From: a virus
Length of the DNA stretch: 63,180 nucleotides
Virus record (IMG/VR): IMGVR_UViG_3300042898_003076
Location: 1-63,180 of that record
Strand: one strand, 5' to 3'
Shown: one piece after another, positions 17,901 through 59,459 of the stretch
Position numbering within the stretch: position 1 is the stretch's first letter
Layout of the letters: every line of letters starts with the position of its first letter
Notes under the pieces: model-generated
What the model was told of the DNA's origin: nothing
Database searches by the model: none
The model's input: only the letters and a program-made list of their open reading frames with translations
Program-made: the position numbers and the translations under genes

Positions 17901-20900
17901 TCTGACATTACCCCAAACTTATCTGGACTTATCACATTACCTGTAGTAAAATATCCTATAGGACGAGGTTGACCAGGATAGAATCTATCTTCAGGTCTAA
18001 GATATGCAAACTGCTCATGAAACTCATTTGCGCCTATAAATGGAGGATTAGGATTTGCTGGTATTCCAGGAGCCCAAGTTCCATCCATAATTCTTTTCAT
18101 GCCCTCTATTCCATGATTATACCACGATAAGCTATCATTATAAGCTTGTAATCTAGGATCATTAGGATCAGTAACATAGATAGGAGTTCTTCCACCTTTC
18201 TGCATCTTAGCAGTACCTCCACATTTATGACATGTTGCAATATCAGTTCCACCATCTACTGCTTTCCAAGACCAACCACAACTAGGACAAGTGAGAGTCT
18301 TGTTTAAAAGTGCACCACCTCTTTTTTTGTACATAAAAATTTCATTACCTGGTTGAACCATATTATAACTTCCTGGAATTCTAGGGCTGATGTCTTCTAC
18401 ATAACCTTTGTTTAAAAGGTTTTCGTATCTTTGTCTTCCAAGATCTGTATGACCTGTAGCACCAGAATAAAGTCTTGAGCCTCTTTCTTTAAGAGCTTCA
18501 CTTATAGCTTTATTAATTTCTCCACTATAACCTTGACCCATTAGTTGTTTACCAACGTCTTCAGCTGCAACCGTAAAAGGAAAGTCACCTGATTTAGCTA
18601 ATCCTGGAAACTGTGCATTTCTAAAGTTTGTAGCATCTACATAATCTTTTGCAAAGCCTGGTTTTACACCTTTTAATTCTTGAATACCTTTTAATATATC
18701 AGAAAATTTTGGTGCAGGTTTTCCTACTGGAGATAAATCTATAAAACCTGTAACGTCATCACCTACTTTTACACTAACTCTATTATTTGGATTATTAGCA
18801 CTAAGCTTTACTGGTAATTCTCCTTTTTTAATACCAACTCCTTTTGCAAGTTTTTCATTTGCTTTTTCAACAACTTCTTTTAAGTCAGGAGCTTTAACAC
18901 CTTTTACAAGTTTCTTGCCTACAAATTCATCAGCTTTATTTAAAGCTCTGTCTATTTTTGAACCTTGTAATACATCATAAAGGTGATTAGCAAGTTTTAT
19001 TTTTTCTTCATCATTACCGTGATTAAAAACAGCATCAATAATACGTGTATCAAAATCTTTGTCTTTTAAATTTTTTAATAAGTTATCTGTTGATCCAAAC
19101 TTGTTATAAAAATAATTTGAAACAGCATCTAAGTCATTAAAATTATTAGAGGTTTTAATATTATTAAGTTGAGTGTAATTTTGAATAGGTGTTGTACGTT
19201 GAGTTAATTCTTGTAAAGGTTTAATTATTTTTTTGTCAGCAACGTTTGCTGCAACTTTTGCACCTTTGCTTAATTGTTTTTGTGTAGTCTCTAATGCTTT
19301 CTTTACATAAGGTGATGCTGATTTTATACCAGGAACAGCTGCTGCCATATCTCCTAATCTTTGTAGACTACGCATGCTTGCATCTTTATATTCTTGTGGT
19401 ATTTCATTACCGGTTAAATCAAGCATACCTGCTGCACCAGCCTTGGCAAAATCTTTGTACATCTCAGGATCAAAAACATTTGTTGCTGCATTGTACATGG
19501 ATCTACCTAGAGAAGCTGGATTTATATAGTCTTGAGCTAAGTCTAAATAATTACTTTGTCCCTGTGTAAAATTATCAGGCAAATAACCATGTTGATACAT
19601 GTTAGTTGCTGCAGTAAAAGGATTTGTTAGAACATCTAAAGCTTTTGATTCAAATTTTTGTGGTACTCTTTCTTGTAAGACATCAGGTGTTGATGATTGT
19701 GCAACAGCTCTATTGTGTGCAGCAATCTGTTGTTGTCTCATTGCCGGACCCATTACTCTTGGGTCAAAGTTTGGCATTGGTTTATTAACCTGAGAGTTAT
19801 ACATCTGCGCTTTTGGTAAACCACCACCAAATTTTCTATTCTCTGCTAGGTATCTATTGTGTTGATCAAAGTCTGCTTGAATTTTATTATAGTTTTCAAG
19901 ATAGCGTTTAATCTTTTCTGATTCTCCTTTGGCTTCACCTTTACGTAAAGTGCGTGGCATACTCCATTGATAATAAGTTTTTTCTGCTTCTGATAAATCA
20001 GCTTTATTACCAGCTGTTTTAGCATACTTATCTTGTACAGATCTATTATCTTTTAGAAGGGCCATTGTTGCTATTGCAGCATGTTCTGAATTCCAAGGAT
20101 CATAATTGTCTTTTCTAATACCAGCACTTGCAAGTTTATTAGCTAAACTTTTTTTGCCAAATAAAACATCAGGATTAATTTGTGTAATCCCTTTTGTGTC
20201 ACCAAATCCTAATTTGTCTGATACATATGAGGGTATAGGTAAACCATACTTCCATCTTATAGTCGTATCATCTCCTCCACCTGTTTCTGTTAAAGCTAAT
20301 GCCGCAGCATGTCTTGCATAATTGTTGTATTCATCATCAGACATACCTAATGCATTTGCATAAAGATCTTTGTTTTTTGACAAACTTTGTACAAATGGTT
20401 CATACTCATCTGGATCATAATCAGCACCTTTAGTCTGAATCTTTAAAGGATTCATTTTACTGCCTTCAAGTTTACCTTGTTTCTTAAGATTTTCATAAGT
20501 GTAACCTTGCACCTCTTGAGGAGATGTAATTATACTAAGGGGCATTGAAGAAAATGTAGGGTCAGTTATAGGTGATATTTTTCCAAAATCATAGATGTAT
20601 GGAACACCTTCTGGTGAATAACCTATAACTCTTGCACTATGATTTGTAGGTACAAGACCTTGTTTAACATTATATGATTGACCTTTGCCATAATGTTCAT
20701 CAAGACCTGACTGACCAAAATTAACAAGAGAACCAATAGGAAGATTTTGATTTATCCAATATTTTTGTTGATCTTCTTTTGACATACTTTTTAGCATGTC
20801 TTGTGTTTGTGAAGGATTTTTTATTGGAGCTGCTAAGTTTACTTTAGCACCGGCTTGTTTATATAAACCTGCAAGATGCCAACTATCATAAGAATCTTTA

Positions 20901-22063
20901 TTAGGACTATTTGAACCTAATTTTTTGTGCATATTTTCTATAATACGCCATGAATTAGGTGCATTTAGTTTTGGAGCAACATACAAATTATAATAATTGT
21001 TTGCTTGCTCTAAACATGCAGCATCACCTTCTTTACATGTTGCAATTCTTTGATCATAAATGTTTTTATACTTTTCAATTTCTTGAGGAGTGTATATAAA
21101 ATCATTTGTGTTTAATGGAACATTAACTTGTGAGTTATACATCTGAGCCTTAGGAAGATTGCCACCTTGTTCAAATAACATGTAAGGATTACCCCTTCTT
21201 CTATTATTAGGATTTGTTGCTTCTCTTTCAGCTCTAGCCCATTCTTGAGTCATTTCTTGAAAAGTCATATTAGATCTTTCATCAGGAAAGTAAGGCAAGT
21301 TTATAATATTCTTAGCAGGTCCCTTCAACCAATCAGCTGGCATATCAGCAGGAAGAACAAAAGGACCATTACTATTATTCTTAGTAGGAAAACAACCTCT
21401 AGAGGTACATATTTCATCAGGAGGTATTTGATATACTGTTTCATCATTAGGATTCAGTCCTCCCGGACCTGGTCCAAATGTAGGCTCATTAGGCCAAGGT
21501 ATACCAGTATTTCTGCTAGGTGTTATTGGCCAACGTATTGGGCCTGGACCAGTACGTTTTGGATATACTCCCCAACCTGGATCAAGGGGATATTGTCTCC
21601 TTTCTTGTTGTTGCCAAGCGCTCATTATATCTTCCCAAGAAGGAGTATTATTACTTGGGTAATATGGAAGATTTTGATATGTTGGAAATTCTACAGGAGC
21701 AGATTGTGCAAATACATTACTGTTTTGAGGTGCTAAAGAATTCATAAATCTTTTTGCAGCCATCTCATAACCGTTTTCAGCTTTATGCAATCCACCATGT
21801 TTTGCAATTCTCTGATAACGCATTGTTGCATTCTCAGGCATACCTTGCTCAAATACAAAATCATGATTTGGAAAAAAATATCTTTCACCAGGTTTTGCAA
21901 GTATTGGATTACCAGTACCTCTACCACCCATAGGAATCATAAGCACATCATGATTAACATTGTTCATGTCAATGTGTTGTGAAGGAATAATATTGAAATC
22001 ATTAAACCTATCAGGTGAGTTTTTCCTGTAGCCTTCTAGAGATATGTTGCCTCTCTTTTTCAT
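14975..22063 (-). CDS. Giant multidomain tail protein with transglycosylase-like domain and zinc ribbon (2362 aa)
   Basis: The largest gene in the window. Seen: a short MKKRGNISLEGYRKNSP start; a possible CHAP/NlpC-like region at about residues 365-500 (SWHLAGLYKQAG, then HSARVIGY with His 475), tentative because no catalytic Cys is obvious; a lytic-transglycosylase-like segment with ALTETGGGDD (Glu 593) and GITQINP (residues 625-631), the spacing expected of the SLT fold; two GG-x-LPKAQMYNSQVN repeats (about residues 310 and 755); a zinc ribbon with Cys 1259/1262 and 1278/1281; a long disordered Gly/Met/Asn/Pro-rich C-terminal third with many GG and a CMNCGG motif; and a C-terminus ending ELTEDEIQQIMEAGGSVTYLD. 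Its start codon overlaps the stop of the hub gene by 1 nt (TAATG). Likely role: a tail-tip or ejected protein that breaches peptidoglycan during infection. Confidence 0.75.
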   Translation of the reverse strand: MKKRGNISLEGYRKNSPDRFNDFNIIPSQHIDMNNVNHDVLMIPMGGRGTGNPILAKPGERYFFPNHDFVFEQGMPENATMRYQRIAKHGGLHKAENGYEMAAKRFMNSLAPQNSNVFAQSAPVEFPTYQNLPYYPSNNTPSWEDIMSAWQQQERRQYPLDPGWGVYPKRTGPGPIRWPITPSRNTGIPWPNEPTFGPGPGGLNPNDETVYQIPPDEICTSRGCFPTKNNSNGPFVLPADMPADWLKGPAKNIINLPYFPDERSNMTFQEMTQEWARAEREATNPNNRRRGNPYMLFEQGGNLPKAQMYNSQVNVPLNTNDFIYTPQEIEKYKNIYDQRIATCKEGDAACLEQANNYYNLYVAPKLNAPNSWRIIENMHKKLGSNSPNKDSYDSWHLAGLYKQAGAKVNLAAPIKNPSQTQDMLKSMSKEDQQKYWINQNLPIGSLVNFGQSGLDEHYGKGQSYNVKQGLVPTNHSARVIGYSPEGVPYIYDFGKISPITDPTFSSMPLSIITSPQEVQGYTYENLKKQGKLEGSKMNPLKIQTKGADYDPDEYEPFVQSLSKNKDLYANALGMSDDEYNNYARHAAALALTETGGGDDTTIRWKYGLPIPSYVSDKLGFGDTKGITQINPDVLFGKKSLANKLASAGIRKDNYDPWNSEHAAIATMALLKDNRSVQDKYAKTAGNKADLSEAEKTYYQWSMPRTLRKGEAKGESEKIKRYLENYNKIQADFDQHNRYLAENRKFGGGLPKAQMYNSQVNKPMPNFDPRVMGPAMRQQQIAAHNRAVAQSSTPDVLQERVPQKFESKALDVLTNPFTAATNMYQHGYLPDNFTQGQSNYLDLAQDYINPASLGRSMYNAATNVFDPEMYKDFAKAGAAGMLDLTGNEIPQEYKDASMRSLQRLGDMAAAVPGIKSASPYVKKALETTQKQLSKGAKVAANVADKKIIKPLQELTQRTTPIQNYTQLNNIKTSNNFNDLDAVSNYFYNKFGSTDNLLKNLKDKDFDTRIIDAVFNHGNDEEKIKLANHLYDVLQGSKIDRALNKADEFVGKKLVKGVKAPDLKEVVEKANEKLAKGVGIKKGELPVKLSANNPNNRVSVKVGDDVTGFIDLSPVGKPAPKFSDILKGIQELKGVKPGFAKDYVDATNFRNAQFPGLAKSGDFPFTVAAEDVGKQLMGQGYSGEINKAISEALKERGSRLYSGATGHTDLGRQRYENLLNKGYVEDISPRIPGSYNMVQPGNEIFMYKKRGGALLNKTLTCPSCGWSWKAVDGGTDIATCHKCGGTAKMQKGGRTPIYVTDPNDPRLQAYNDSLSWYNHGIEGMKRIMDGTWAPGIPANPNPPFIGANEFHEQFAYLRPEDRFYPGQPRPIGYFTTGNVISPDKFGVMSENNGSRWGDQAYYKKPTQPIVYKESTKVTTPKTLKRTLTPIKKKEAVPQEIVDYLQQKQMSLPTQQQEPELRMPTTPKDTTAGKRIAWRMDPDTKKMVPVIGGMKEKVKDMKRLYNKDIPSSTAAIPADFIPQFEPDGNADVVSKKMGGWLDELDEEYRRGGALLNRRETNKNIKSSINQLMRRNETLFGPRGRNFYNPNPMKKYYKGGIAFPQAPTAGDTPGQQESEFYAPNWIPKGPVGFYEHGGIAYPQQPTSDYFFSGSPWMAHYDMGGGLPSGANNMYMPCMNCGGYMEDGGMYYAQPGKIINPTPVPAMDADMYEKNVLAPKDQAYTQDLINKAKKQEEWNKAHPWTRSAGTTPEGAQLFHKTGQSGTPQDYVYNTKSGAYDSYNPTPVIAKQRYGGFQSGGFMSPDNMMDYPIFSQGGDPYDYADGGINNPGFRALPQNVQQNIISNMADGGNVADYDQDQYTRILGNNFMSGVQGNMPNNTMSEAGMQFAQNPYQMPEGEYGYNMNSFNAPNMMNAGNMFDIQDKYDQLKNKNKGIGANMYNTGMFALGTANQYTKYKARKKGSGTLEGTPDMATNQGIGNTMDQSAQSGMARYGAAYIPKAQDGRRHLDYFTKAAGMPQLTFPSPSSASTSSANPNNLSPEALAKKQAFWNEADAYDQKSAMYNQMQQAGYPNMMRQQGQFAPGFQSMYDNFGNDDYNVGRMSRGMQNMLPYLMANPQNTYLQEYNAKKALFGPGARKVSMKFRTVFDPRTGQQVQVPAEGKGSAKGKADMMNDPNISRYSKEDLKLMYGTSDEPKGTSTQKDYEDMNMFERMKVNRQNKRMMKEEGRREKKWGVQNAIPENPDYTAPAGTTFANNMAYAPAPPPAQSGYPTTSGYNLFNTSLNTTRPAYTPRNVFGTPSSNMLTGPFDQNKRMMERLNQSQALRDPLSVQQQRYGGMYEVGGIQELTEDEIQQIMEAGGSVTYLD

Positions 22064-29990: not shown

Positions 29991-30515
29991 TTAAGCTGGT
30001 TTAGTTGTTAATAATAGGGTTACTGAATAACAAGTACTTACAGATGCACATACAGTTTTAACACGTACGTAGTAATCAGTGTTTGGTAATAGACTTGATA
30101 TTGTTGCTGTGTTTACAGTCACGGAAGGAAGAGTTGTCCAAGTTGGGGTTGTAGGCACGCGATGTTCAACCACGTATCCTGTTGCGCCGGTAACAGCTCC
30201 CCAAAATAATCCAAGAGTTGTACTTGTTATTGTTGTTGACTTAAAGCCTATAGCTGAACCACACTCTGCTCCTGGTATAACACAATCAGGATTGGTGATC
30301 ATAAGAGTTAACTTTTGAAGAATATCACATAGACGTTCTCCTTTGTTTATTCCTATATCAGCTATTGTATCTCCTGTATGGATAACACAACAGTCACTCC
30401 ATGTTTCAGAACAGATGTCTGGAGTTGGACAAGTTACTACGTTGCAAGAACATGGCGCTGGTGTTGTTAGCGCCGTGTCATTGCATCCACAATTTTTATT
30501 TTTACAATTTGCCAT
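29991..30515 (-). CDS. Fibronectin type III protein with Cys-rich N-terminal module (174 aa)
   Basis: Residues 1-85 are Cys-rich (CKNKNCGCND, then CSCNVVTCPTPDIC) and include CCVIHTGDTIADIGINKGERLCDILQ-type sequence, which recurs in the next protein. Residues about 88-174 form a fibronectin type III domain: STTITSTTLGLFWGAVTGATGYVVEHR, then TNTATISSLLPNTDYYVRVKTVC-like strands, with the W and the L-x-P-x-T-x-Y-x-x-R pattern. FN3 domains are common on phage tail and capsid surfaces, where they are thought to bind carbohydrates or other surface molecules. The Cys-rich part probably anchors it to the virion. It sits 11 nt after the 518-aa gene. Confidence 0.75.
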   Translation of the reverse strand: MANCKNKNCGCNDTALTTPAPCSCNVVTCPTPDICSETWSDCCVIHTGDTIADIGINKGERLCDILQKLTLMITNPDCVIPGAECGSAIGFKSTTITSTTLGLFWGAVTGATGYVVEHRVPTTPTWTTLPSVTVNTATISSLLPNTDYYVRVKTVCASVSTCYSVTLLLTTKPA

Positions 30516-30526
30516 TTTCTAATTTT

Positions 30527-32083
30527 TTAAAGCTCTGGTTCCCAAATAATTACTGCTGTTACATCTTCTGGTGGTGTACAAGGTACAGGTAATGTTTCAA
30601 CTTCTGTAAAAGGACAAGTTACTATAGGACAAGCAGAGCAAGATGTAGGTACAACAGTTATACGGAATTTGTATACGGTTCCTCCACCTAAGCCAACTAA
30701 TGTTCCTGTAACTGGTACAGCAGCTGTAGAAATGTAAGTATTTGATACAATTAATATTGTACCTGTTGCATCATAAAGGTCAGCAGTGTAAGTGTAGTTT
30801 CCAGTTTGAGTTATAAAGTCATATTGTACAGTTGTCTCAAGAGCTATTAATGTTACCACAGGACAACCAGGACTATTTGAATAAACATAATCTAAACATG
30901 ATTCACAAGTACTTGTACCATCAGTTAAGCATGGTTCAATTTCAATAGTTAAGTCTAAAGCTGTATTGATTATAGTTGAAGCTAAGCTTACAGCAAATCC
31001 ACCTGGAGCATTTAAGAATCCTATTAAGTCAAATGGTACTGTAATTGAATTACCAGTACTGTCTGATATTTTGATTATTGTGCTACCAGAGCATTGTGTA
31101 AACCCAGAAGGAATGGTTCCGTTTACAACCACATTCATTATCTGAGGTGCAGATTCATAAATGCCAAATAAGCTTAGAGTTATACCTGAGCATCCTGAAG
31201 GACAACAGTTTACTTGAATATTTTTTACAGCTGAACGTAAGTCACATATAGTCAACCATAAGTTACCAACAGACTCAGCAAGTGTACTAACAGTTGTTGA
31301 CCAACCCGGTATTGCTGACATTGGTCCTCCTGAAGGACTAAGAGCTGTATCTGAATTTAAACCAGCACATTGTTTTGCAATGTTCAAGTATAATTCAGTT
31401 GGCGTTCCTGTTGCAGTTCTTAAATCACAAAACTGTGTTTCTAAAGCTGTAAGCACATTCTCCATTGAAGTAGGAGTAGATGGTAAAACACATACAGGAG
31501 TTACAGCAGGAGGAATGTATTGTGTATTTTGAAGTGTTGTTACATTTCCTTCTACATTTGTAACACGGTTACCTAAATCAGTAATACCTGTAGTATTTGT
31601 TGACGTGTTATTAGTAAGAGTACAGATTTTATTACCAATTGCAGTAATATAATCTTTCATCTGTAAAACAGTTATAAGATCACCTATACCATTAGTAAAC
31701 TGAAAACAAGGTGCTAATGTCATTTCACAATCAGGACATCCTGTTGTACCTGTTGTAGGAGGTGTTGTTATATTACCGTTACAATCCGGCACACAACCTG
31801 AGCATTTTTCTACAGCACAAAGACGGTCCATTATAAACTGTAATAGCTTAGGGAAAGTAGAAGGTGAACAAGATGTCAAATTAAAACATGATAAGTCATA
31901 ATTAGCTCCATCAACGGTAAGCATATCTTGTAACTTACATAATTCTACAGCCATGTTGTAAACCACATCACTCACAGAGTCTCCTTTACAGAGACTGATA
32001 CAAGGTAAATCTGGTCCTTGCCAGATTACACAGTTTGAAGATACTGGATCACAACTTTGTGTTTTTGAGTTTGTAGGTTTCAT
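30527..32083 (-). CDS. Cys-rich tail/fibre protein with shared N-terminal module (518 aa)
   Basis: The chosen start is ATG 32083 (MKPTNSKTQSCD), because an in-frame codon at 32167 would overlap the previous gene by 43 nt and add a basic, unlike sequence. Residues about 15-60 (NCVIWQGPDLPCISLCKGDSVSDVVYNMAVELC) match the N-terminal module of the 174-aa protein. The middle is rich in Thr/Asn/Gly with a long helical stretch (IGNKICTLTNNT...VTNVEGNVTTLQ) that looks like a trimeric-fibre coiled coil. The C-terminal part has paired Cys (CESCLDY, CSACPIVTC) and FN3-like beta strands (TVYKFRITVVP). Most likely a tail fibre or baseplate-like appendage protein. Confidence 0.65.
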   Translation of the reverse strand: MKPTNSKTQSCDPVSSNCVIWQGPDLPCISLCKGDSVSDVVYNMAVELCKLQDMLTVDGANYDLSCFNLTSCSPSTFPKLLQFIMDRLCAVEKCSGCVPDCNGNITTPPTTGTTGCPDCEMTLAPCFQFTNGIGDLITVLQMKDYITAIGNKICTLTNNTSTNTTGITDLGNRVTNVEGNVTTLQNTQYIPPAVTPVCVLPSTPTSMENVLTALETQFCDLRTATGTPTELYLNIAKQCAGLNSDTALSPSGGPMSAIPGWSTTVSTLAESVGNLWLTICDLRSAVKNIQVNCCPSGCSGITLSLFGIYESAPQIMNVVVNGTIPSGFTQCSGSTIIKISDSTGNSITVPFDLIGFLNAPGGFAVSLASTIINTALDLTIEIEPCLTDGTSTCESCLDYVYSNSPGCPVVTLIALETTVQYDFITQTGNYTYTADLYDATGTILIVSNTYISTAAVPVTGTLVGLGGGTVYKFRITVVPTSCSACPIVTCPFTEVETLPVPCTPPEDVTAVIIWEPEL

Positions 32084-32124
32084 AGTATTAATATAATAAA
32101 ATTTAATGTCATTTGCAAGTTTTA

Positions 32125-33615
32125 TTAAGGTATAATTGGAGGACAACCTATAGCTGGATCTGTACAATCACCTGTTAATATTTGATTAATTGTTACAATA
32201 AGACCTCTACATTTATCTGGTACAGGTACTGTTTGTGAACAAATATATCCTGAACCTGAGATTAATGTAACTACAGCAACTCCTGCACAGTTTATAGAAT
32301 TAAAATCACAAGATGCTACAAACCCCGGAGTATCATAATCAACTGTAACTTGGTAACAAATACAAGGTATTGGAGCAGGTGATATACAAGCTGAACAGTC
32401 TGCAGATTGTTGTGTAATTAATAAATCTGATAAACAGGCTGATACAAATGTACTTGGAGTTGGTGCACATAAATATAAAACTTGCTCTACTTGTATATTT
32501 TCAAATATTGTAGTATTAGTTAAACAATCTTTGTATGTAAATTCACAAGGTGCAATTCCACCGTTTTCTATTCTATAACAAGCACAATTTAGAGGAGGAG
32601 GTGATACACAAGGTTCAGAGTCACAATCGTCTAATATGTTTACAATTACTTCAGGAGAAACTACCGGATATGTGTCAGAACAATATCTGTATACACCTTG
32701 ATTTAAGTTATAACTTGTAGTTTGACCTTGACAAGTTACTTGTAAAGGAATTGGAGCTAAGTTAGGAGCTGTAATAACAAACTCATAACAAGTACATGGA
32801 GGCGGAGGATTTGTACATGTAACTGTAGAACAGTCTGCTAATTGCAAATATGTAATAGCAGGATTAGAAACTACAGGTTCTGATTCAGAACAATAATAGT
32901 GATCACCAATAGTTAAATTTGTATGTGGTGTAGTAACACCGTTACAAGTTACTGTAACAGATTTTGTACCTATAAACTCTGGTACTGTTATTTTATAGCA
33001 GTAGCAAATTGGAAAAGGAGGACCTTTTTCTATAGTCACATTACAACCATCACACTTGATGATGATACCTTCATTTAGTATTTCTTTGTATATGCTACAA
33101 AGTTCTTCATCAGTTAAGGCTGGTGTTACTTTTAATAAGTTGGATAAAACTGCACAAAAAGGAGAAGATTCTGTAAGCTCAAGTGTTCCATACTCTACAA
33201 TACCTATTTGTTGTAATTCATTGCAACAAGCTGCTCCTAATTTAGAAGTAAGTTCATTTACACAAGATGAAAAATTGTTTGTACAACAATCATAAGTGTA
33301 ACGCTCTAAGAAAGTTGTATAAGCTGTACTACTTGTAACACTACTAATATTAACGCAACAGTTTAACTTGTCACCATATTGGTAACCTAATGTGTCTAAT
33401 ATTATCGTAGCCTTAGGAAGGCTTGCTAAAAAATAAATTCTTTGTGTACCATCTAAACATTCTGGACAGCAATAAGACCCGTCACCATTGCTTATTGATA
33501 ATCCTGTTTGTAACATGTTAGTCAACAAGTTTAGATAGGTTGTGCTGTTGTTGTTTGAGGCGGGTGTTCCTGATGTAGAACTTGTGTTGCCGTTTGGATA
33601 ATATATTGTTCCCAT
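32125..33615 (-). CDS. Cysteine-repeat tail protein (496 aa)
   Basis: Residues 1-195 form a module shared with the 257-aa neighbour (CCPxC start, then YDCCTNNFSSCVN, LQQIGIVEYGTLELTESSPFCAVLSNLLKVTPALT). Residues about 200-496 hold four repeats of roughly 70 aa, each beginning C-x-CY-x-(V/I/F) and carrying a YxCS-x-(T/E)-(Y/V)-PVVS-like turn and a C-x-x-x-C end. Proline-rich linkers (PPPP) separate them. The Cys spacing suggests disulfide-stabilised beta domains. It lies between its paralogue upstream (8 nt) and the 518-aa gene. Inferred role: adsorption apparatus or virion surface appendage. No homologue with known function was recognised. Confidence 0.65.
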   Translation of the reverse strand: MGTIYYPNGNTSSTSGTPASNNNSTTYLNLLTNMLQTGLSISNGDGSYCCPECLDGTQRIYFLASLPKATIILDTLGYQYGDKLNCCVNISSVTSSTAYTTFLERYTYDCCTNNFSSCVNELTSKLGAACCNELQQIGIVEYGTLELTESSPFCAVLSNLLKVTPALTDEELCSIYKEILNEGIIIKCDGCNVTIEKGPPFPICYCYKITVPEFIGTKSVTVTCNGVTTPHTNLTIGDHYYCSESEPVVSNPAITYLQLADCSTVTCTNPPPPCTCYEFVITAPNLAPIPLQVTCQGQTTSYNLNQGVYRYCSDTYPVVSPEVIVNILDDCDSEPCVSPPPLNCACYRIENGGIAPCEFTYKDCLTNTTIFENIQVEQVLYLCAPTPSTFVSACLSDLLITQQSADCSACISPAPIPCICYQVTVDYDTPGFVASCDFNSINCAGVAVVTLISGSGYICSQTVPVPDKCRGLIVTINQILTGDCTDPAIGCPPIIP

Positions 33616-33623
33616 AGTTGTTA

Positions 33624-34397
33624 TTAATTAGCGTTATTCCATGTTATAAAAGCGTCTGCACTTCCTATAAAGATTTGACCATTATAACAGCCATATACAA
33701 AACCTTTTGTCATAAGGTTGCTTACAAAAGTTCCTAGATTAGCAGAAGAAAGAGTTGGTGTAATAGCCGTTAAAGTGTTTATCAAGTTGCAAACTTCAGT
33801 TTTGTAACCTGCTGTAGGTAACTCAACAATTCCTGTTGTAAGTAAAGCAGCTTGGTTATTAACTTTACTGAATAGTAAATTCACACATGCTTCAAATGTA
33901 TTATCACATTTTACAGGGAAAGACCAATTTTTGTTATTAAAGAAGTTGTTTATACTTGTAGATACTGTTGAGTTTGTTCTAAAGTTTAAACAGCAGTTAG
34001 GTGGATAGTTAATATTATTTTGAACTAACAAGTACTTGCTAGCTCCTCCTAAGTAATAAATATCATCACCGCAGCAACCAGGACAACATAAAGGTTTATT
34101 TCCTGTATTGCTCATTACTATACCACCATCCATCAATGTGTTCCAAGATGTAACAATATCTGTTATTGACGGTGTTGTTGCTTGAGCTACAGCAGTGTTA
34201 ATAGCATATATTAGGGGGCTTGTACAGTTTGTGTTTTGACAAGGTTGATCAATATAACAGTTTAATATTTCACCGAAGAAAAAGTCAAAAGGAGACTTAC
34301 AAGTTCTAGTAGGTGGAGGTGGTGGCACAGGTTTTGGACAACAACATACCGGTTGATAACAGGTATTACATGTACTCATTTGATTATAACAGCTCAT
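33624..34397 (-). CDS. Cysteine-rich tail protein, paralogue of the next gene's N-terminus (257 aa)
   Basis: The first 33 residues carry about nine Cys and a run of prolines (CNTCYQPVCCCPKPVPPPPP). Residues about 100-257 align by eye with residues 40-195 of the 496-aa protein: CCPGCCGDDIYYLGG, NCCLNF, FEACVNLLF, TTGIVELPTAGYKTEVCNLINTLTAITPTL, GFVYGCYNG. The start overlaps the stop of the 1344-aa gene by 4 nt (ATGA), so translation is coupled. It is probably a structural subunit that partners with the repeat proteins on either side. Function unknown. Confidence 0.65.
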   Translation of the reverse strand: MSCYNQMSTCNTCYQPVCCCPKPVPPPPPTRTCKSPFDFFFGEILNCYIDQPCQNTNCTSPLIYAINTAVAQATTPSITDIVTSWNTLMDGGIVMSNTGNKPLCCPGCCGDDIYYLGGASKYLLVQNNINYPPNCCLNFRTNSTVSTSINNFFNNKNWSFPVKCDNTFEACVNLLFSKVNNQAALLTTGIVELPTAGYKTEVCNLINTLTAITPTLSSANLGTFVSNLMTKGFVYGCYNGQIFIGSADAFITWNNAN

Positions 34398-37300
34398 GGT
34401 AAATTTGGATTTTTAATTGATTGAAGATCTAATAATTCTTTTTTGATGTCCCATTTGTCCAGGTCCTCATCACAACAAACTGTTAATCCGTATCTAGCTG
34501 AAAGCATTTGGTTATTAACTTGATCAGCATAAGTACAGTTTACTTTGTCATAATATTCAGGAGAACAAACTGGTGTTTTGTAACCTGGTTCTACAGCTCT
34601 TGTCTTAAGAGCTATAACCGGTATAACTACTGCAGGAGGTGGAGCACAAGCTTCACATGGTGTTGGTTGATCTACAATAGGAATTGTCACACAAATTTTA
34701 GGAGCACATACTGGTGTACCTTGAGGATCTATATAACATAAGTCTCCGTAAGTTGCTGTTCCTGTAGCTATTATAGTTATAATAGGACATGGTGACGTAT
34801 CATCTGCTTCAAATGTAAACACACCTAGATTTAAACTATTCAACCAGTCAATCCAGTTTTGAGGATCACAGTATCCAATAGCAGGTGAGTTGTATTGAGT
34901 ACCGTTGATGATTATTCTTATAAGGTCTGTTGCCTCATATGTAAGAATAGCTTCATAACGACAAACTTTAGTTTGAACAGGTGCAGGAAAGCATTCAAGT
35001 ACTGTAACTTCTTTTATACAACCGTCACAACTTTCAGCTAACTCTACTTGCCAACAAACATCTTCACAGTCTTTTATTTTTATTACACCACCTACGCAAT
35101 CAGCAAGATCTGTTCCTGTGACAACAATAGGATCTTCTATACCTTTACAATCAGTAAGGATGTAGCATATTCTTTTACAAGCTTCACAAGAAGCAAAGCC
35201 GTCTCCAAAATCACCTAAAAAATCAGGACCTATAGCAGAGTCTGCTGGTAAAACAGATACACAGTAACAACCTGGTGCCCAAACCGGATTAGGAGGAGGA
35301 TCACAATCACAAGTTGCCTCTCTGTTTACAATAACTTCTGTAGGGTCTTCACAAATTTGACCGTCAGGATTTGCAGTAACTGTGAAGCAAGATCCTGGAT
35401 AACCTACAAGTACAACACTTGTATTAAGATATTGGTATAAGTTTGTAATACTACAGATATCTGGTACTATACCTTTACAGTCAGTAAGTGTATAAGCGTA
35501 TGGTTGTGGCTCAATTGTTTTTAATAAAGGTGGTGGTGATGGTATACAAACTTTAAAGTAGCCATTGTTTACATAATCAGATAAATCTGTATTAGTAATA
35601 AAGTCTGCTTGCTTACCGTCACAATCAACAACTTTGTAAGTTGGTTCACATGGTACATAAGGAGCCGTTTGTATTACAGTACAGCTTGGTCCGCTACCAC
35701 AGTCAGTAAAAGTTGAACCCGGAGGACAAATATATCCTGAGTTTACACCTGTAGAAAAAGCAGTGCCAATCTTATTAAAGGTACTGAATATTGTAATACT
35801 AGGATTTTGAAGTTGAGCAGCTGTAGTAAATGCTTGTAGAGTAACTGAATTTGCATTATAAATTTCAGCACCAAATGCTGCTGCTCCACTGTCATTTAAA
35901 CCTTCTAGTTTAAACACATGGAAACCTTGAGTTAATGTAATCTCAAATACATGCCAGAAGTTAAAGTTGAATACATTTACATTAAGAGCTTGTACTATTA
36001 ACGTACCATCTACGCTTAATCTAAACTTATTATCACCGGCAACACCAATACAATAAGTTTTTGTAGTAGGAATATTAACACAAGCTGTAAAACCAATCCA
36101 CTCATTAACAGGATTAGGAGATGATGTTGTCCAAATACCAACGGTGTTTAACCTTGAATTTGGTCCACTACCCCATACACCAGCTGTAAGCGGTGATCCT
36201 GAATAAACAGTAAGGTTGGTAGAAGCAGCATCTTGAAAGTCGCTTGCTCCAACTTGCGTAAGAGGAAAAGGTAAAGTTGTAATGTTATTGTAAAAGTTTG
36301 CACCTAAAGAACCGTAGGCTGCATTCTTGTCTCCGGGGGCAGCAATATAAGTTATTGGACCAGGTGTAGCAGGAACAGTTACTATTTTTTGACAAATGTC
36401 TCCTACTTTTTCATATCCTGGAGGACAATAACAAGCATTGCATTCATCACAAGATAAAACACTAGATGTAGGATTAGCAATTGTAATATCATTGTCACAT
36501 GTTTGTGAAAGTTTTACAGTATAGCATGCACAGCCATCAGAAACACAAACTTTTATAATCTCATTAAGATATGAGCTTAAGTTGTTGTTTACTATAATAG
36601 AAGAAAGAGTTTTATCACATGGCTCTAGTAAATAGCAAGAGCTTTTACAAGCTAAACAAGTTGGATAATTATTATAACTTACAACTTCAGTCCAGTTTAT
36701 AGCATTAATACAGTCACTGTTAGGTCCTATTATTTCAAGTTCATAACAACCTACAACACAACCACCAGCTGCTGGTGTAAAACATAAATCACCTAATACT
36801 TGACCTACTAAAGTAGCTGGATTAGGTATGCTAGGATTTGTATTTGGAACTGTATAAGATACAGTATAAACAATTTGTTGAGTATCACAGTCTTTAAGAC
36901 CATAGCATACTTGAGTACAAATTTCACAAGTATCTTTAAAATTAATAAGCTTACGTGGTACGGCACCATCACAAGATTCTGCTTCTTCTACTCTCCAACA
37001 ACCATTTACACATGTTTCAGATTTACCAGAAATAGTACAAACAGTTCCTACAACTTGTCCTACATATAAGCTTAAATTAACACCGTTAGTTGTTGGATTG
37101 AATACGGTTATGTAATCTTGATCTGTAGTACAATCTACTAATAGATAACATTCACAAGTGCATATTACAGGAGAAGGGATTAGAATGGGATTAAAACATT
37201 GACCTCTCAAGGCTTCTTCTACTAAGAAACATTGACCAGCATAACCAGGAACACCACTAATACTTAAAGATGGTGTTACATAAGCTGAAAGATTTGATGT

Positions 37301-38428
37301 TGAATATATTACAGTTTGTCCATCACAAGATGTTAGCTTATAACAAGTTACGCCTGCAGAAAGACAAGTAATACAATCTACTTGCGTAGTGTAAGTAATA
37401 GTTGGAATAGAAGTTAAACAGGTTGTTTCACCTTTTACTTTCCAACAATTAGGTACCCCAGGAGGAAGAGGAAAAATACTAGTAATTGATATTACTGTAT
37501 TAAATCCAGGATATGTTGGTGTAGAAACTTGGTAAGTTATAAGTTCATCATCACAGGCTACAATGTTATAGCAACGAGGACAGTCACAAGGTTCTACAGT
37601 TTCAGTATTAACTATAATAGGACTTTCACAAACTCCTGAAGCTGTACTTACAGTATAGCAACCGGTTAATCCACCGCCTGTTATAGTTTCTTCTAAGTAA
37701 TCCTCTAGATTAGAATTTGTACAAAGTGTAGTTCCGTCAAAATCACAAGGTTGTAAAATGTAATACAAACCTAAACAAAGCATACAGCTTGTTTGAGGAG
37801 TGTAAGTAGTTATAGCAGTTTCAGTGCTATCGCAAGTTACAGCACCAACTACACTCCAGCAGTTAGGAAATATCTCATAACCTGGTGGAATGTCTATTGC
37901 ATTAAGACTTAATACATCATTTGCAAAAAGAGCTCCTGTGTAACTTATATTAAAAGTTGCACCAATAACTTCACAGTTTCTAATTTGATAACAGATAGCG
38001 CATACACAAGGTTGAACACAAGTAACAGGTGCAGCATCTGCACACATTGCTATAGGTTTTGACCCCACAATAAAACATCCAGGATATTCATCAACACTTA
38101 TATTAAATCCTACATAAGAATTAAGGTTTGTTAAGGTATCAAATGTAATAGCAGGATTATTACAATCTGTAAGAGTATAACAAATTCCTGTATTACCACA
38201 TTCACATACGCCTAAAATATCAGCTTCTGTAAACGGATCAATTGGCCCACAAGAACATGGCGCAAAAACTTCTTCTACTGTAAAGCATATATCTAATGGA
38301 TAACCTCCAGCTATAGTGTAAGGAAAAATTTCAGTAGTACCTCCAACTAAAGGAGCAAGAGTTGCTTGATTAGAATAAATAACCGTAGTATTACTAGCTA
38401 TACAAGAAGAGAGTTTATAACATGCCAT
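34394..38428 (-). CDS. Giant cysteine-rich tandem-repeat tail protein with PA14-like insertion (1344 aa)
   Basis: About a dozen repeats of 80-110 aa follow the pattern CYxLxxC ... DLSxYVG ... GCWxVxxxxxCD ... CxxC, beginning at residue 3 (CYKLSSC). Good examples are CYQIRNC, CYKLTSC, CYLLVDC, CYGLKDC, CYLLEPC and CYILTDC. Residues about 690-880 interrupt the array with a Cys-poor domain (ITYIAAPGDKNAAYGS..., EWIGFTACVNIPTTKTYCIGV, RLSVDGTLIVQ, FHVFKLEGLNDSG) resembling PA14/lectin-like beta sandwiches. After two or three more repeats the C-terminal 200 residues differ and end in a DLDKWDIKKELLDLQ helix. A likely receptor-binding or whisker-like appendage. The repeats are direct observation; the binding role is inference. 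Confidence 0.7.
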   Translation of the reverse strand: MACYKLSSCIASNTTVIYSNQATLAPLVGGTTEIFPYTIAGGYPLDICFTVEEVFAPCSCGPIDPFTEADILGVCECGNTGICYTLTDCNNPAITFDTLTNLNSYVGFNISVDEYPGCFIVGSKPIAMCADAAPVTCVQPCVCAICYQIRNCEVIGATFNISYTGALFANDVLSLNAIDIPPGYEIFPNCWSVVGAVTCDSTETAITTYTPQTSCMLCLGLYYILQPCDFDGTTLCTNSNLEDYLEETITGGGLTGCYTVSTASGVCESPIIVNTETVEPCDCPRCYNIVACDDELITYQVSTPTYPGFNTVISITSIFPLPPGVPNCWKVKGETTCLTSIPTITYTTQVDCITCLSAGVTCYKLTSCDGQTVIYSTSNLSAYVTPSLSISGVPGYAGQCFLVEEALRGQCFNPILIPSPVICTCECYLLVDCTTDQDYITVFNPTTNGVNLSLYVGQVVGTVCTISGKSETCVNGCWRVEEAESCDGAVPRKLINFKDTCEICTQVCYGLKDCDTQQIVYTVSYTVPNTNPSIPNPATLVGQVLGDLCFTPAAGGCVVGCYELEIIGPNSDCINAINWTEVVSYNNYPTCLACKSSCYLLEPCDKTLSSIIVNNNLSSYLNEIIKVCVSDGCACYTVKLSQTCDNDITIANPTSSVLSCDECNACYCPPGYEKVGDICQKIVTVPATPGPITYIAAPGDKNAAYGSLGANFYNNITTLPFPLTQVGASDFQDAASTNLTVYSGSPLTAGVWGSGPNSRLNTVGIWTTSSPNPVNEWIGFTACVNIPTTKTYCIGVAGDNKFRLSVDGTLIVQALNVNVFNFNFWHVFEITLTQGFHVFKLEGLNDSGAAAFGAEIYNANSVTLQAFTTAAQLQNPSITIFSTFNKIGTAFSTGVNSGYICPPGSTFTDCGSGPSCTVIQTAPYVPCEPTYKVVDCDGKQADFITNTDLSDYVNNGYFKVCIPSPPPLLKTIEPQPYAYTLTDCKGIVPDICSITNLYQYLNTSVVLVGYPGSCFTVTANPDGQICEDPTEVIVNREATCDCDPPPNPVWAPGCYCVSVLPADSAIGPDFLGDFGDGFASCEACKRICYILTDCKGIEDPIVVTGTDLADCVGGVIKIKDCEDVCWQVELAESCDGCIKEVTVLECFPAPVQTKVCRYEAILTYEATDLIRIIINGTQYNSPAIGYCDPQNWIDWLNSLNLGVFTFEADDTSPCPIITIIATGTATYGDLCYIDPQGTPVCAPKICVTIPIVDQPTPCEACAPPPAVVIPVIALKTRAVEPGYKTPVCSPEYYDKVNCTYADQVNNQMLSARYGLTVCCDEDLDKWDIKKELLDLQSIKNPNLP

Positions 38429-38437
38429 TTCTATATA

Positions 38438-38614
38438 TTATTTTTTAGGCTGAAACAAAGTTGTTGTTGTTTGTTTTGGTGTTGATGGATTAGATGTCAA
38501 TTGAGCTTCATAAGAAGCAATACATTTAGCACATACTTGTGCACCATTACGCGCTGTTCTTTTTTGACAACCACAGCCTAGAGTTGTTTTGCAATTTGGA
38601 CATTGGATTCCCAT
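38438..38614 (-). CDS. Small zinc-ribbon protein (58 aa)
   Basis: It reads MGIQCPNCKTTLGCGCQKR, then VCAKCIASYE, with a Thr/Pro/Gln-rich tail ending FQPKK. The CPNC and CAKC pairs form a treble-clef or zinc-ribbon-like knuckle, with an extra CGC between them. It ends 9 nt before the giant Cys-repeat gene, and an A-rich leader precedes its ATG. It could help fold or assemble the neighbouring Cys-rich proteins or bind nucleic acid. Unrecognised family. Confidence 0.6.
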   Translation of the reverse strand: MGIQCPNCKTTLGCGCQKRTARNGAQVCAKCIASYEAQLTSNPSTPKQTTTTLFQPKK

Positions 38615-38635
38615 ACTTTTTTTGTTTTTATTGGT

Positions 38636-39202
38636 TTAGTAATTTCTATTATTACAGGTTGTACAAGTCATTTTATCTAAAAGCCTTGTAGCGTAACCAT
38701 ATAGATCCATGCCTTTTTTTGGTTGATGGCAAGTTTCTACCATGGCTTTTGCAGCTTTTAAATATTGTTGTATTAGCCTGATTTTGTTTAATTTATCAAG
38801 TAATGTTTGAGGTGGCTCACAAGTTCCTAAGTCAAGATCACAATATATCCCTTCTACGCGGTTTAGTGCTTTTGTAATACGCAAGTGATTATATTCAGCA
38901 TATACAATCTCATTAGGAGATACGCTGTATTTTATAATGTAGATACCATCAGGAAGCTCATTGTAATTAGAACCACATCCAGCACTTTGTACACCAAGAT
39001 CACAAGCAGTAAGATTAAGACTAAATCCTGGTTGTAGTTGTGGCTCAGTAATTTGAGCCGGTGTGCTAAAACCTGGCAATGTTATTTGTAGAAGAGGACA
39101 GATTACAGGAATCTGATCATTGTAAACGCTTGTATCTATAACTCTTAGTATACATCTGTTTAGTGTATCTGGGGCTTCTAGACTTAATACATGTTGTGCC
39201 AT
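38636..39202 (-). CDS. Conserved phage structural/adaptor protein (188 aa)
   Basis: The chosen start is ATG 39202 (MAQHVLSLEAPDTLNRC). An upstream in-frame codon at 39250 would fall inside the terminator hairpin. The N-terminal ~115 residues are beta-rich (CILRVIDTSVYNDQIPVICPLLQITLPGF, GFSLNLTACDLG, LPDGIYIIKYSVSPN). The C-terminal part is helical with four Cys (CDLDLGTC; CTTC at the end). I recall this family from uncultivated Bacteroidota phages, without known function. It is the first gene after the 39229-39262 terminator and leads the Cys-rich unit. Possibly an adaptor between the tail and the Cys-rich appendages. Confidence 0.6.
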   Translation of the reverse strand: MAQHVLSLEAPDTLNRCILRVIDTSVYNDQIPVICPLLQITLPGFSTPAQITEPQLQPGFSLNLTACDLGVQSAGCGSNYNELPDGIYIIKYSVSPNEIVYAEYNHLRITKALNRVEGIYCDLDLGTCEPPQTLLDKLNKIRLIQQYLKAAKAMVETCHQPKKGMDLYGYATRLLDKMTCTTCNNRNY

Positions 39203-39228
39203 TTTATTGTTTGTAAGTTGAATTAAAG

Positions 39229-39262
39229 AAAAAAAAGGGAGGAGAAACATATTCTCTCTCCC
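39229..39262 (-). terminator. Rho-independent terminator after abundant structural gene
   Basis: On the minus strand, GGGAG(A)GAGAA, a short loop, then TTCTCCTCCC (39262-39237, one bulged A) is followed by eight T. It lies 28 nt after the stop of the 474-aa gene. Confidence 0.8.
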
Positions 39263-39289
39263 TTATTAATTTTAAAATAAAGTTGCTGA

Positions 39290-40714
39290 TTAGCAAGGAG
39301 GAGTCGGAACTACTCCGCCGTCAGTAACTACACAACAACGAGTACAATCTTCAGTTTCTAACTCAACACAGTTAGGGCAACTTGCTAACCAAGCGGTTAA
39401 GAAAGCCTCTAAAGCTGCGTTAGTTCCATTTGAAATAATCTCTAACATGTAGCGGTCATTGTCAAAAGTTCCAGTTGGGTTGTTGAAACGTGGTACACTG
39501 TGTAAGATGTAATATCTTGTGTACAATGCATTACGGTCAACACTGTTAAGGATTTGATCTCCTTGAGTGATTTCCCTGATACGAATATCAGTTGCAAAGA
39601 AGTTTTGTAAGTATCTCTCTGATAAAATCAAGTCACGAACAACTTGCTCACCAAAGCCCATACCTTGGATACCACGACAATCGTTGTATACACAAAGTCC
39701 TTCAAATACACATGGATCACCGTTGTAGTCAACTAATGAAGCATATAAACGTACTGGCTCTTTTTCAAAGAAGTCAGTAACTTGGAAAGAACAGTTACCA
39801 AACTTAGTCTCTACATAAGCACCAAATAAACGTAAACCTGCTTCACAAGTGTTAGGTAATGCACTAGTCCAAGCAATAGCTTGAGCAGAAGCTGGATAAT
39901 TAGTCCACCACTCTGCAGGAGTAACTGGAGTGTTAGTTCCATCATAAGTTACAGTAGTTCCTGGAGCATACCATGCTACTTGAGTGTAGTCATAAACTAC
40001 AGGAGCAGCTAAGTCTTTTAAGTAGTTGTTTATAACTAATGCTTTAGCCCACTCAATGTAAACTAAAGTAGGATCTACATTAGTTGGAGTAGGTCCAGTA
40101 CAACATCCTGTGTAAGCAGAAAGTGTTTGGTAAGCATTGTGATTTAAGAAACGCAATGCAGGAGAACCTTTGATGTCAATTCTTAAGTAGTAAGTTTCAC
40201 CACATAAGAAGTTGTAGCAGCAATTTGCTTGTACTGTACCACCTTGAAAATTATCAGCAGGTAATCCTGGGATAATTGTTTGAGGTGTAGTTCCAACTGA
40301 AATTACAGCTTGTTGAGGAGTACAGCTATCAACACGGTATACTTTTTGGATATACTTAGGGTTGATTAACTTTGACTTGTTTGACTCTTTGTAGCCACCA
40401 GTGTACTGGTTTAATTTATCTTTGCTCAACAATGAAGCTGAAGCTAAAGTTAATGGGCAACAAGTGTTGTAGCTGAAATAGGTTGTATCAACTGAGATCA
40501 ATCCACTTGATGGGTCATTTACGAAAAAGCCGTAGCTTCCTACTCCGTAATTGCTTGCAGCGATTGAACTAGTATTACCTAATTCTACTGATTGTTTACC
40601 TGCAGTGATTAAGAAACCATCTACAAGATTTGGGTTTGGGTTTTGTCCGGCACCAGGTCCAGAGTCTTGTGTTCCCAAGAACACTTTGTTAAAGGCGTGA
40701 TTAAAATAGGCCAT
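39290..40714 (-). CDS. Putative abundant virion structural protein (474 aa)
   Basis: It begins MAYFNHAFNKVFLGTQ and has a beta-rich body with Cys-rich loops (NTCCPLTLAS, NCCYNFLCGETYYLRIDIKG, YTGCCTGPTP), a helical part after residue 340 (GFGEQVVRDLILSERYLQ) and a C-terminus packed with Cys (CPNCVELETEDCTRCC). The gene has its own promoter-like leader (box at 40739-40746) and its own terminator. Its codons look closer to the capsid gene than to the neighbours by eye. This suggests high expression, as for a major tail or decoration protein. I do not recognise the family; a tail tube or capsid-decoration role is inference. Confidence 0.6.
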   Translation of the reverse strand: MAYFNHAFNKVFLGTQDSGPGAGQNPNPNLVDGFLITAGKQSVELGNTSSIAASNYGVGSYGFFVNDPSSGLISVDTTYFSYNTCCPLTLASASLLSKDKLNQYTGGYKESNKSKLINPKYIQKVYRVDSCTPQQAVISVGTTPQTIIPGLPADNFQGGTVQANCCYNFLCGETYYLRIDIKGSPALRFLNHNAYQTLSAYTGCCTGPTPTNVDPTLVYIEWAKALVINNYLKDLAAPVVYDYTQVAWYAPGTTVTYDGTNTPVTPAEWWTNYPASAQAIAWTSALPNTCEAGLRLFGAYVETKFGNCSFQVTDFFEKEPVRLYASLVDYNGDPCVFEGLCVYNDCRGIQGMGFGEQVVRDLILSERYLQNFFATDIRIREITQGDQILNSVDRNALYTRYYILHSVPRFNNPTGTFDNDRYMLEIISNGTNAALEAFLTAWLASCPNCVELETEDCTRCCVVTDGGVVPTPPC

Positions 40715-40792
40715 GTTTTCTTTTTTTTTAGGGTTTTACAAAAATATACTTTAATATAAGCAATTTTATTCAAATTGCAAAATTTTTCTCAA
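40715..40792 (-). promoter_or_regulatory. Bacteroidota-type promoter candidate
   Basis: On the minus strand TATTTTTG (40746-40739) matches the -7 consensus TAnnTTTG, about 25 nt before the ATG of the 474-aa gene. No well-spaced -33 TTTG was found. The rest of the 78-nt spacer is A/T-rich with no gene. Confidence 0.5.
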
Positions 40793-41290
40793 TTATTTTA
40801 AAAAGATTAATTTGTACTTAGTTGAATTAATAGAGTCTTTTACCAAATCCAAGTTGTTAACAATTTCTGAGTAAGGCAGCATTCCTTGTAGTTTTGTGAT
40901 AATAGCTGACAAATCTCTTAAATAAGCTACAGCATCTGAAACTGTATCTAGTATTCTAGGAGTAGTTTCTGTATAAGACAAAAGTTTTTCAGAGGCTCCT
41001 TGATATCCTTCAGCTAAAGTGTCAGCATGACCTGGTAAAGCATCATAAAGTTCATTAAGCGCTTTATGTGCAGCATAAGATCCATCACCTTTTACTTTTA
41101 AATGCAGTTTATGAAAACTTGTTGCAGCATTCATAATTTCTGATACACAGGCACTTACCATAGTATCTAAAGAACTTCCACCAACTCCTGTATCTGAAGC
41201 TGGTTTTGCTTTAACAGGTTCTGCTTTTGTTTCAGGTCTGCTAATACCTTTTACAGGTTCAGGGTTTCTTTTTAATATTCTGTTTTCCAT
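40793..41290 (-). CDS. Dps/ferritin-like phage protein (165 aa)
   Basis: The first 45 residues are a Lys/Pro/Glu linker. Residues about 50-165 are all-helical with SFHKLHLKVKGDGSYAAHKALNELYDALPGHADTLAEGYQGAS. This resembles the ferritin-like/Dps-like phage domain known as DUF5856, in which His, Asp and Glu on two helices line a possible metal site. The protein could bind DNA or sequester iron in the virion or the host; catalysis is untested. Its start overlaps the previous stop by 1 nt (TAATG). Confidence 0.6.
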   Translation of the reverse strand: MENRILKRNPEPVKGISRPETKAEPVKAKPASDTGVGGSSLDTMVSACVSEIMNAATSFHKLHLKVKGDGSYAAHKALNELYDALPGHADTLAEGYQGASEKLLSYTETTPRILDTVSDAVAYLRDLSAIITKLQGMLPYSEIVNNLDLVKDSINSTKYKLIFLK

Positions 41291-58349: not shown

Positions 58350-59459
58350 TTATTTTTTAGCACCATCTTGTGTGGCATATTTTATTCCCATGATTGTTCC
58401 TACTATTGAAAAAGCATTAGTCAACAAAACACTAAACATATTGCTCCAAGTTGAACCAATTATTTGTGTATCTTGATTTGTGATTATTGCTACCCAATAT
58501 AATATTGTTGTTACAACTCCAACTCCAACTATAACAGCCAATGCAACTCTAACAATTATTTTTATTAATTCACTCTGGCTTTTTTTCATCATCACATCTA
58601 AGTCATTTAAAGCTGCATCCTTTTCTAACTCTATTGCATTCTTAAGCTTTTGAGAATTTTCCAACTCTACTGTTAAACTCTTTGTAAGTTCATCTATTTT
58701 TTTCTTGTTGTTTACAGACTCAGTAACATTAGTTGCAATCTTGACTACATCAGTAATATTTCCTTTGCTGTCTAATACAGGGTTATAAGATGCTTGTAAG
58801 TAAACAGTAGAGCCATCTACTTTTTTTCTCTCAAATATTCCATCAAAGTACTTGCCTTTTTTTAAACTCTCCCAAAACTTAGCATACTCATCAGATTTTG
58901 AATATTCATAGCTCACAAAAATACTATGATGTTTGCCAATTACTTTATTTTTTTCATTGGCTTTAAAACCCATTGTTTCTAAAAATATAGAATTGACATC
59001 TGTTATAAAACCTTCAGTATTAAAACTAATAAGAGCTGTACTTCTGTTGATTGCATCTATTTGTTTCTTGCTGTTGACAATTAAACTAATGTCAGTGGCA
59101 ATCTTCATTATCTTGGTGATCTTATTATCCTCATCAAAAATAGGATTGTAAGTTGCTTGAAGATTGATAAGACTTCCATCTTTTTTTCTTCTCTCAAACT
59201 CACCTTGATAATACTTGCCACTTCTTAGTATATCCCAAAACTTTTCATATTCAAGTGTTCTTGCATAATCTTCACACACAAAAATACTATGGTGTTTACC
59301 AATAATCTCTTGGTGATTACCTTTACCATAACCCATTGCTTCTAGGAAGATGTCATTGACCCCTGTTATAATTCCAGTAAGGTCAAAGTAAATTATAGCA
59401 TTGCTTCTGTTTATTGCTTCAAGCCTGCTTAATAACTCTTCTTTAGATAGGTTTTTCAT
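58350..59459 (-). CDS. Membrane protein with two PAS domains in lysis cassette (369 aa)
   Basis: Two PAS domains (about residues 14-125 and 136-247) share AINRS-start sequences, GKHHSIF motifs (54-60 and 175-181), FWDIL/FWESL motifs, and YNPIFDE/YNPVLDS ends leading into KIATDI and KIATNV, typical of PAS domains in chemotaxis receptors such as Aer/BdlA. A coiled coil (about 250-297, KKKIDELTKSLTVELENSQ) follows. Two membrane segments close the protein: about 299-327 and 341-361 (FSVLLTNAFSIVGTIMGIKYA). No kinase, HAMP or methyl-accepting domain is seen. It lies between endolysin and holin genes with 3- and 19-nt gaps. Inferred: a sensory membrane protein that may act as a gated holin or lysis regulator. 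Domain calls are clear; function is not. Confidence 0.75.
   Translation of the reverse strand: MKNLSKEELLSRLEAINRSNAIIYFDLTGIITGVNDIFLEAMGYGKGNHQEIIGKHHSIFVCEDYARTLEYEKFWDILRSGKYYQGEFERRKKDGSLINLQATYNPIFDEDNKITKIMKIATDISLIVNSKKQIDAINRSTALISFNTEGFITDVNSIFLETMGFKANEKNKVIGKHHSIFVSYEYSKSDEYAKFWESLKKGKYFDGIFERKKVDGSTVYLQASYNPVLDSKGNITDVVKIATNVTESVNNKKKIDELTKSLTVELENSQKLKNAIELEKDAALNDLDVMMKKSQSELIKIIVRVALAVIVGVGVVTTILYWVAIITNQDTQIIGSTWSNMFSVLLTNAFSIVGTIMGIKYATQDGAKK

Follow-up and report, generated by a model that had tools for sequence, protein, structure and literature searches.

Long arrays of small beta domains are known from crAss-like phages, in which the BACON array has been proposed to serve host binding (PMC6949934). 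Disulfides have been made visible by cryo-EM in the tail hub of phicrAss001, and gp38, gp39 and gp22 of this phage are disulfide-stabilised external tail proteins (PMC10172136). The structural proteins of the Agrobacterium phage Milano contain 2.4% Cys and many stabilising disulfides (PMC10491603), and its Cys-rich collar, sheath and capsid proteins form these bonds despite their assembly in the cytoplasm (PMC10491603, PMC10811340). Here, we followed up an earlier note, made from the sequence alone, on a giant Cys-rich repeat protein encoded in 63,180 nucleotides of viral DNA, an IMG/VR virus record that we analysed over its whole length and refer to as the window. The note had called such a Cys density unusual for a protein assembled in the bacterial cytoplasm; considering the disulfides of the phicrAss001 tail hubs (PMC10172136) and of Milano (PMC10491603), it appears less odd.

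The protein consists of 1344 aa, 103 of which are Cys (7.7%), and is encoded by an intact single frame (34394..38428; this and all other coordinate ranges given for the window refer to its minus strand). Like the tandem-repeat protein gp64 of crAssphage and its relatives (PMC6949934), it is a long array of small domains, here predicted as beta domains, in a tail-gene setting. As far as a comparison by description allows, it differs from BACON, which is described as an Ig-like domain, in that its repeat is Cys-rich, belongs to no Pfam family and has another gene context; the BACON profile gave no match among the Pfam results for the window protein or for 89 two-repeat pieces. Although phicrAss001 is from the same virus order, the repeat, the C-terminal (CT) domain and the insert of our protein had no sequence match to the phicrAss001 proteins tested, and the hub protein gp38 is small and single rather than an array of repeats. 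Unlike Milano, with its 2.4% Cys and many inter-subunit bonds, the window protein has 7.7% Cys and covarying pairs within the repeat. In the literature, of which our coverage was partial, no description of an array of disulfide repeats at 7.7% Cys was found. We consider the gene product likely to be a modular, tail-fibre-like adhesin on the virion of an environmental Crassvirales-like phage, stapled by disulfides, anchored through its CT domain and oxidised on release. The repeat protein is probably a sturdy appendage that grips the host.

The window is Crassvirales-like, since it carries a crAss-type terminase and MCP, with ring and muzzle genes after the MCP. Its TerL matches crAss terminases (E 1e-38 over 89%) and its MCP matches those of csAssE-Sib, phi4:1 and the cr-series, the terminase and MCP matches to crAss-like phages being distant (23-29% identity). 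Profile comparison related the window genes 28300, 27179 and 22063, which come after the Cys-rich block, to phicrAss001 gp40 (95.6%), gp43 (86.6%) and gp44 (74%), respectively. In phicrAss001, gp40 and gp43 are ring-type proteins. Its gp44 is the muzzle (PMC10172136). In Leptolyngbya phage Lbo-JY46, the nearest MCP match, no repeat match was found in the 36 kb examined. Elsewhere in the window, 14975-22063 and 11434-14973 encode large, probably internal (cargo) proteins, nearly Cys-free, in which short Gly-rich motifs such as GGxLPKAQ or ARYGG are numerous. At 58350-59459, near putative lysis genes, a protein of 369 aa is encoded that combines two PAS domains (PAS_3, 3e-24) with a C-terminal stretch that looks membrane-like by eye; it is possibly a phage-carried sensory protein.

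Directly upstream of the repeat gene there is a conserved structural protein of 204 aa (38636..39250) that we used as a marker of the slot. It matches by profile the family of Cellulophaga phage phi17:2 gp58 (96.8%, E 3e-10), which includes gp58 itself, annotated as a structural protein, and a structural protein of csAssE-Sib. In csAssE-Sib (locus L258, 11662-16400), about 1 kb separates the marker homologue from a downstream gene, putatively for a tail fibre, with the VR/TR of a diversity-generating retroelement; therefore, the slot is a region of appendage genes in crAss-like phages. An identity of the marker with the phicrAss001 tail hub gp38 was not supported, as the profile match was just 1.2%. 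The marker gene matched none of the 84,980 bacterial and archaeal genomes searched and thus points to no host. Further upstream, a conserved 474-aa protein (39290..40714) is also Cys-rich (4%). On the other side, the stop of the repeat gene overlaps by 4 bases the start of the next gene, as in translationally coupled genes. This gene (33624..34397) encodes 257 aa with 7.8% Cys and is followed by a 496-aa protein with 8.5% Cys (32125..33615), by a conserved 'SSNCVxWQGPD' protein (30527..32167), which comes after the slot in relatives as well and whose C-terminal part is FnIII-like according to weak PDB profile matches, and by a Cys-rich FnIII protein (29991..30515; Pfam fn3 1e-6, PHROG major tail protein 5e-10).

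The repeats were delimited with an iterated profile built from the protein's own repeats and those of relatives. Twelve homologous copies were obtained, starting at residues 3, 83, 146, 222, 286, 362, 427, 508, 598, 931 (a half copy), 979 and 1088, with domain E-values from 1e-16 to 2e-5. The about twelve tandem repeats read by the earlier note are therefore real and do align, while the length of roughly 100 aa it gave them has to be corrected, as the copies are 59-88 aa long and spaced about 60-90 aa. Nine copies are located within residues 3-664: R1 (3-77; 38198..38422), R2 (83-141; 38006..38182), R3 (146-218; 37775..37993), R4 (222-286, without C1; 37571..37765), R5 (286-355; 37364..37573), R6 (362-426; 37151..37345), R7 (427-504; 36917..37150), R8 (508-595; 36644..36907) and R9 (598-664; 36437..36637). 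Three more lie within 931-1147, namely the half repeat R10 (931-961; 35546..35638), R11 (979-1043, again without C1; 35300..35494) and R12 (1088-1147; 34988..35167), the most canonical copy with 57 bits. The repeats had been said to run throughout the 1344 residues; the number of copies stands, but a second insert and a separate CT domain had been overlooked. This second insert, recognised by reading the sequence (about residues 1156-1257; 34658..34963), precedes the CxxC of R12 (1258-1261) and has a similar stretch in the related locus L003. The conserved, helical CT domain (residues 1276-1344, 69 aa; 34397..34603) has four conserved Cys and two helices in the predicted model and is the likely anchor.

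The profile has the consensus CYKLTDCDDGTDTIITSTDLSAYVGQVIKIEGCPGGCWTVEESESCTGAITPVTVLTSYEDCEECN (66 positions) and matches 702 copies in 153 ORFs of the window and related viral loci; together with the concentration of Cys described below, this places the array far outside chance. Predicted alone, R6-R7 gave a confident small all-beta unit (pLDDT 89, pTM 0.72), in which the second CxxC coincides with a short helix. The repeat had no sequence match in Pfam, PHROGs or PDB sequences, and its fold had none in Foldseek PDB/BFVD (best E 1.1 and 0.9) or VIA (Z ≤ 2.9), an absence that does not establish a new fold. The whole protein as query had no match in phage records, the PDB or, with peptide patterns, IMG/VR, and no cultured member with the repeat gene was found in phage records. 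The repeat belongs to no described family that we found, while a modular phage adhesin as such is a known kind of protein. In its way of working, the protein would resemble the tandem-repeat tail fibres and BACON arrays of crAss-like phages (PMC6949934).

The Cys-poor region noticed before between the repeats is present, but its limits of 690-880 have to be widened to about 681-916 (35681..36388), and it is introduced in the window and in relatives by a CPPGY...C motif (residues 668-679; 36392..36427), found in the search of the insert family. Its only Cys are C783, C793, C901, C910 and C916. In a prediction of residues 598-1344, which includes R9, the mean pLDDT was 80 and that of the insert core about 95. 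The insert is predicted to be a beta-sandwich resembling sugar-binding PA14 and CBM domains. Foldseek related it to sugar-binding PA14 domains with a probability of 1.00, and VIA with Z 5.2-5.7; most of its PA14 Z-scores are only 5-6, and a Z below 8 may reflect merely a common arrangement. The best Z, 8.8, was obtained with the CBM-like domains of rhamnosidases. Pfam PA14 (PF07691) scored 14.7 bits on the window protein, below the gathering cut-off of 24, and reached E ≤ 0.01 in 4 of 62 slot proteins (best 1e-4). The PA14-like domain proposed to interrupt the repeats is supported by structure comparison, with a sub-threshold Pfam score. Besides its predicted fold, which resembles the PA14 domains of the MpAFP/RTX adhesin, Flo5 and Epa and the CBM-like domains of GH78 rhamnosidases, the insert has the conserved Asp of the DD/DN position. 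At this position, that of the calcium/sugar-binding DcisD motif, the first Asp was present in 18/18 cases, and the second residue was Asp in 7/18 and Asn in 11/18, including the window. The insert differs from those PA14 domains in its score below the Pfam cut-off, in having DN instead of DD and in being embedded between Cys repeats. More than 20 slot proteins contain relatives of it, in most cases introduced by the same CPxGY motif, and from fold and family it is probably a sugar-binding tip.

The repeat and CT profiles are too loosely conserved for pattern scans. Relatives were reached via the upstream marker gene. Two IMG/VR scans with it gave 491 and 576 related stretches (overlapping sets), and the slot was evaluated in the 105 loci that do not overlap and reach 4.5 kb or more downstream of the marker. 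Within these 4.5 kb, the CT domain was present in all 105 loci and the repeat in 100, with 1 to 11 repeats per locus versus 12 in the window. In loci long enough to show both sides, the slot is located between the marker and the ring/muzzle genes. As adhesion modules, the variable parts of slot proteins contain PA14, BNR/sortilin/YCF48-type repeats (YCF48/sortilin-type families in 8/62), Ig, PKD and VWA domains; SprB, Fib_succ and Hoc-like decoration modules also occur, and in several loci further domains follow the CT domain or the CT domain is on a separate short ORF. A constant CT domain with exchangeable parts is the expected look of an anchor with variable tips, and would suggest that the protein docks to the virion by its CT domain. 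In one locus (L006, 8680-12180), a slot protein combines the Cys repeats with sortilin/BNR-like repeats and a region that looks VWA-like by eye. Small HNH-/GIY-YIG-like ORFs, by eye probably homing endonucleases, occur between structural genes in three loci (L004 17727-18194, L005 6902-7408 and L006 3752-4396).

Cys is concentrated around the slot. Of the 345 Cys encoded in the window's minus-strand ORFs of at least 100 aa, 239 fall in the eight ORFs at 29991-41290, where Cys makes up 6.53% versus 0.66% in the remaining minus-strand ORFs, and the capsid protein has none. In phicrAss001, Cys amounts to 5.1% in gp38 and to 0-2.2% in the other proteins examined. Among 15 relatives, no phage-coded glutaredoxin was found, and one encodes a thioredoxin (G009:C1:96428-96721, 3.5e-32; contig of locus L067). 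No Erv1/Alr was found in the 15 either, a result that shows little, as the search matched no control genome.

Pairing was assessed by covariation in 385 repeats, non-redundant at 70% identity, with Cys numbered along the repeat profile. C7 and C37 are near-invariant, the CxxC (62, 65) is common, and C1 and C46 are variable. These two come and go together: C1 was accompanied by C46 in 174 repeats and lacked it in 2 (table 181, 28; 2, 174; Fisher p = 4e-76). Since related repeats are non-independent, we shuffled C46 among the repeats within each protein; C1/C46 were concordant in 245/262 cases versus 150 ± 8 expected (p ≤ 0.0002), while C1 and the CxxC were uncoupled in the same test (p = 0.38). 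A 'CC' subtype with adjacent C7-C8 lacks C1/C46 (C8 versus C1, p = 7e-13) and carries an extra Cys before the CxxC (32/49 versus 4/127, p = 1.7e-18), so that this second pair, C8 and the extra tail Cys, and the C1/C46 pair are mutually exclusive. Judged from predicted secondary structure, C1-C46 and C7-C37 (sums 47 and 44) would be roughly compatible with a single antiparallel pairing, and in R7 the additional pair C464/C473 would lie on opposite sides of a predicted hairpin.

Because the gains and losses of Cys occur in twos, at alternative places, disulfides are favoured over a four-ligand metal site, and the covariation bears out the 'disulfide-like' character first ascribed to the repeats. 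The metal-binding alternative of the earlier note finds no such support, C1/C46 varying as a pair while C7, C37 and the CxxC stay. We regard it as very unlikely that the repeats hold zinc by C7, C37 and the CxxC with C1/C46 as an optional extra, even though CxxC is a usual zinc ligand, some copies have a second one (DCPGCW), and C7, C37, C62 and C65 are the four near-invariant Cys, inseparable in our data and with partners not fixed by covariation. The weak coupling of C37 loss to CxxC loss (p = 2e-4) would also suit zinc. It is opposed by the pairwise gain and loss of C1/C46 and C8/extra-tail Cys at different places, by the frequent replacement of CxxC by CxC, by the scarcity of zinc-ribbon/zinc-finger matches, of which only single weak ones appeared among the 89 two-repeat pieces, and by the concentration of high Cys in the external-structure gene block. 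Even more improbable, in our opinion, is that the bonds join different chains in a covalent network like the Milano collar, the repeats being cross-linked sheath blocks and not adhesin stalks. Covariation of C1 and C46 inside the same repeat points to intra-repeat bonds, and copy number and modules vary freely among relatives, unlike in a lattice protein. What speaks for this network, apart from the collar and sheath disulfides of Milano (PMC10491603, PMC10811340), are the odd Cys counts of some repeat types. All 10 units with C33 but without C46 have an odd Cys number, and therefore a minority of Cys must either be free thiols or form bonds to other units or chains. Overall, 61 units were even and 41 odd, with fuzzy unit borders, and some Cys may bond between units.

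The place of attachment leaves more room for doubt. The same stapled modular protein might be docked to the head, as a Hoc-like or head-fibre adhesin that decorates the capsid and binds host surfaces or particles instead of being a receptor-binding fibre, which we consider unlikely, although less so than the two former explanations. The grouping of the repeat gene with ring/muzzle tail genes argues against it, as does the csAssE-Sib marker homologue about 1 kb upstream of the putative tail-fibre gene diversified by the retroelement; moreover, the head-fibre genes of phicrAss001, gp21 and gp29, are without Cys. On the other hand, some slot proteins match Hoc-like head-decoration families, and crassvirus head fibres exist, one with an Ig-like tip (PMC10172136).

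In the tail-fibre-like adhesin that we prefer, the CT domain would, to judge from its conservation, be the constant part docking the protein to the virion beside the structural protein encoded upstream, and the small all-beta repeats would form the stalk. Each repeat would contain about three disulfides, with some copies swapping or adding a pair: C1-C46, which is supported by covariation, C7-C37, which seems plausible as both are near-invariant and compatible in strand register, and putatively C62-C65 within the CxxC. The PA14/CBM-like insert would be the tip, binding surface sugars. The adhesin might be made and attached in the cytoplasm in a reduced form, its cysteines oxidising after lysis, and the oxidised appendage would resist proteases and shear in open water. 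More tentatively, a large uncultured branch of crAss-like phages might have evolved a small new all-beta disulfide fold as a general-purpose stalk. Copies of this fold would interchange their disulfide sites as if these were staples, and different adhesive tips (PA14, propeller-like repeats, Ig, VWA) would be fitted to a docking domain that stays constant.

A repeat family not named before, together with a constant anchor domain, marks the proposed adhesin slot in well above 100, and likely several hundred, environmental crAss-like contigs. Therefore, candidate receptor-binding proteins can be found by their position. The adhesin would also allow a test of how an external part with so many disulfides can be produced by a virus that assembles in a reducing cytoplasm.
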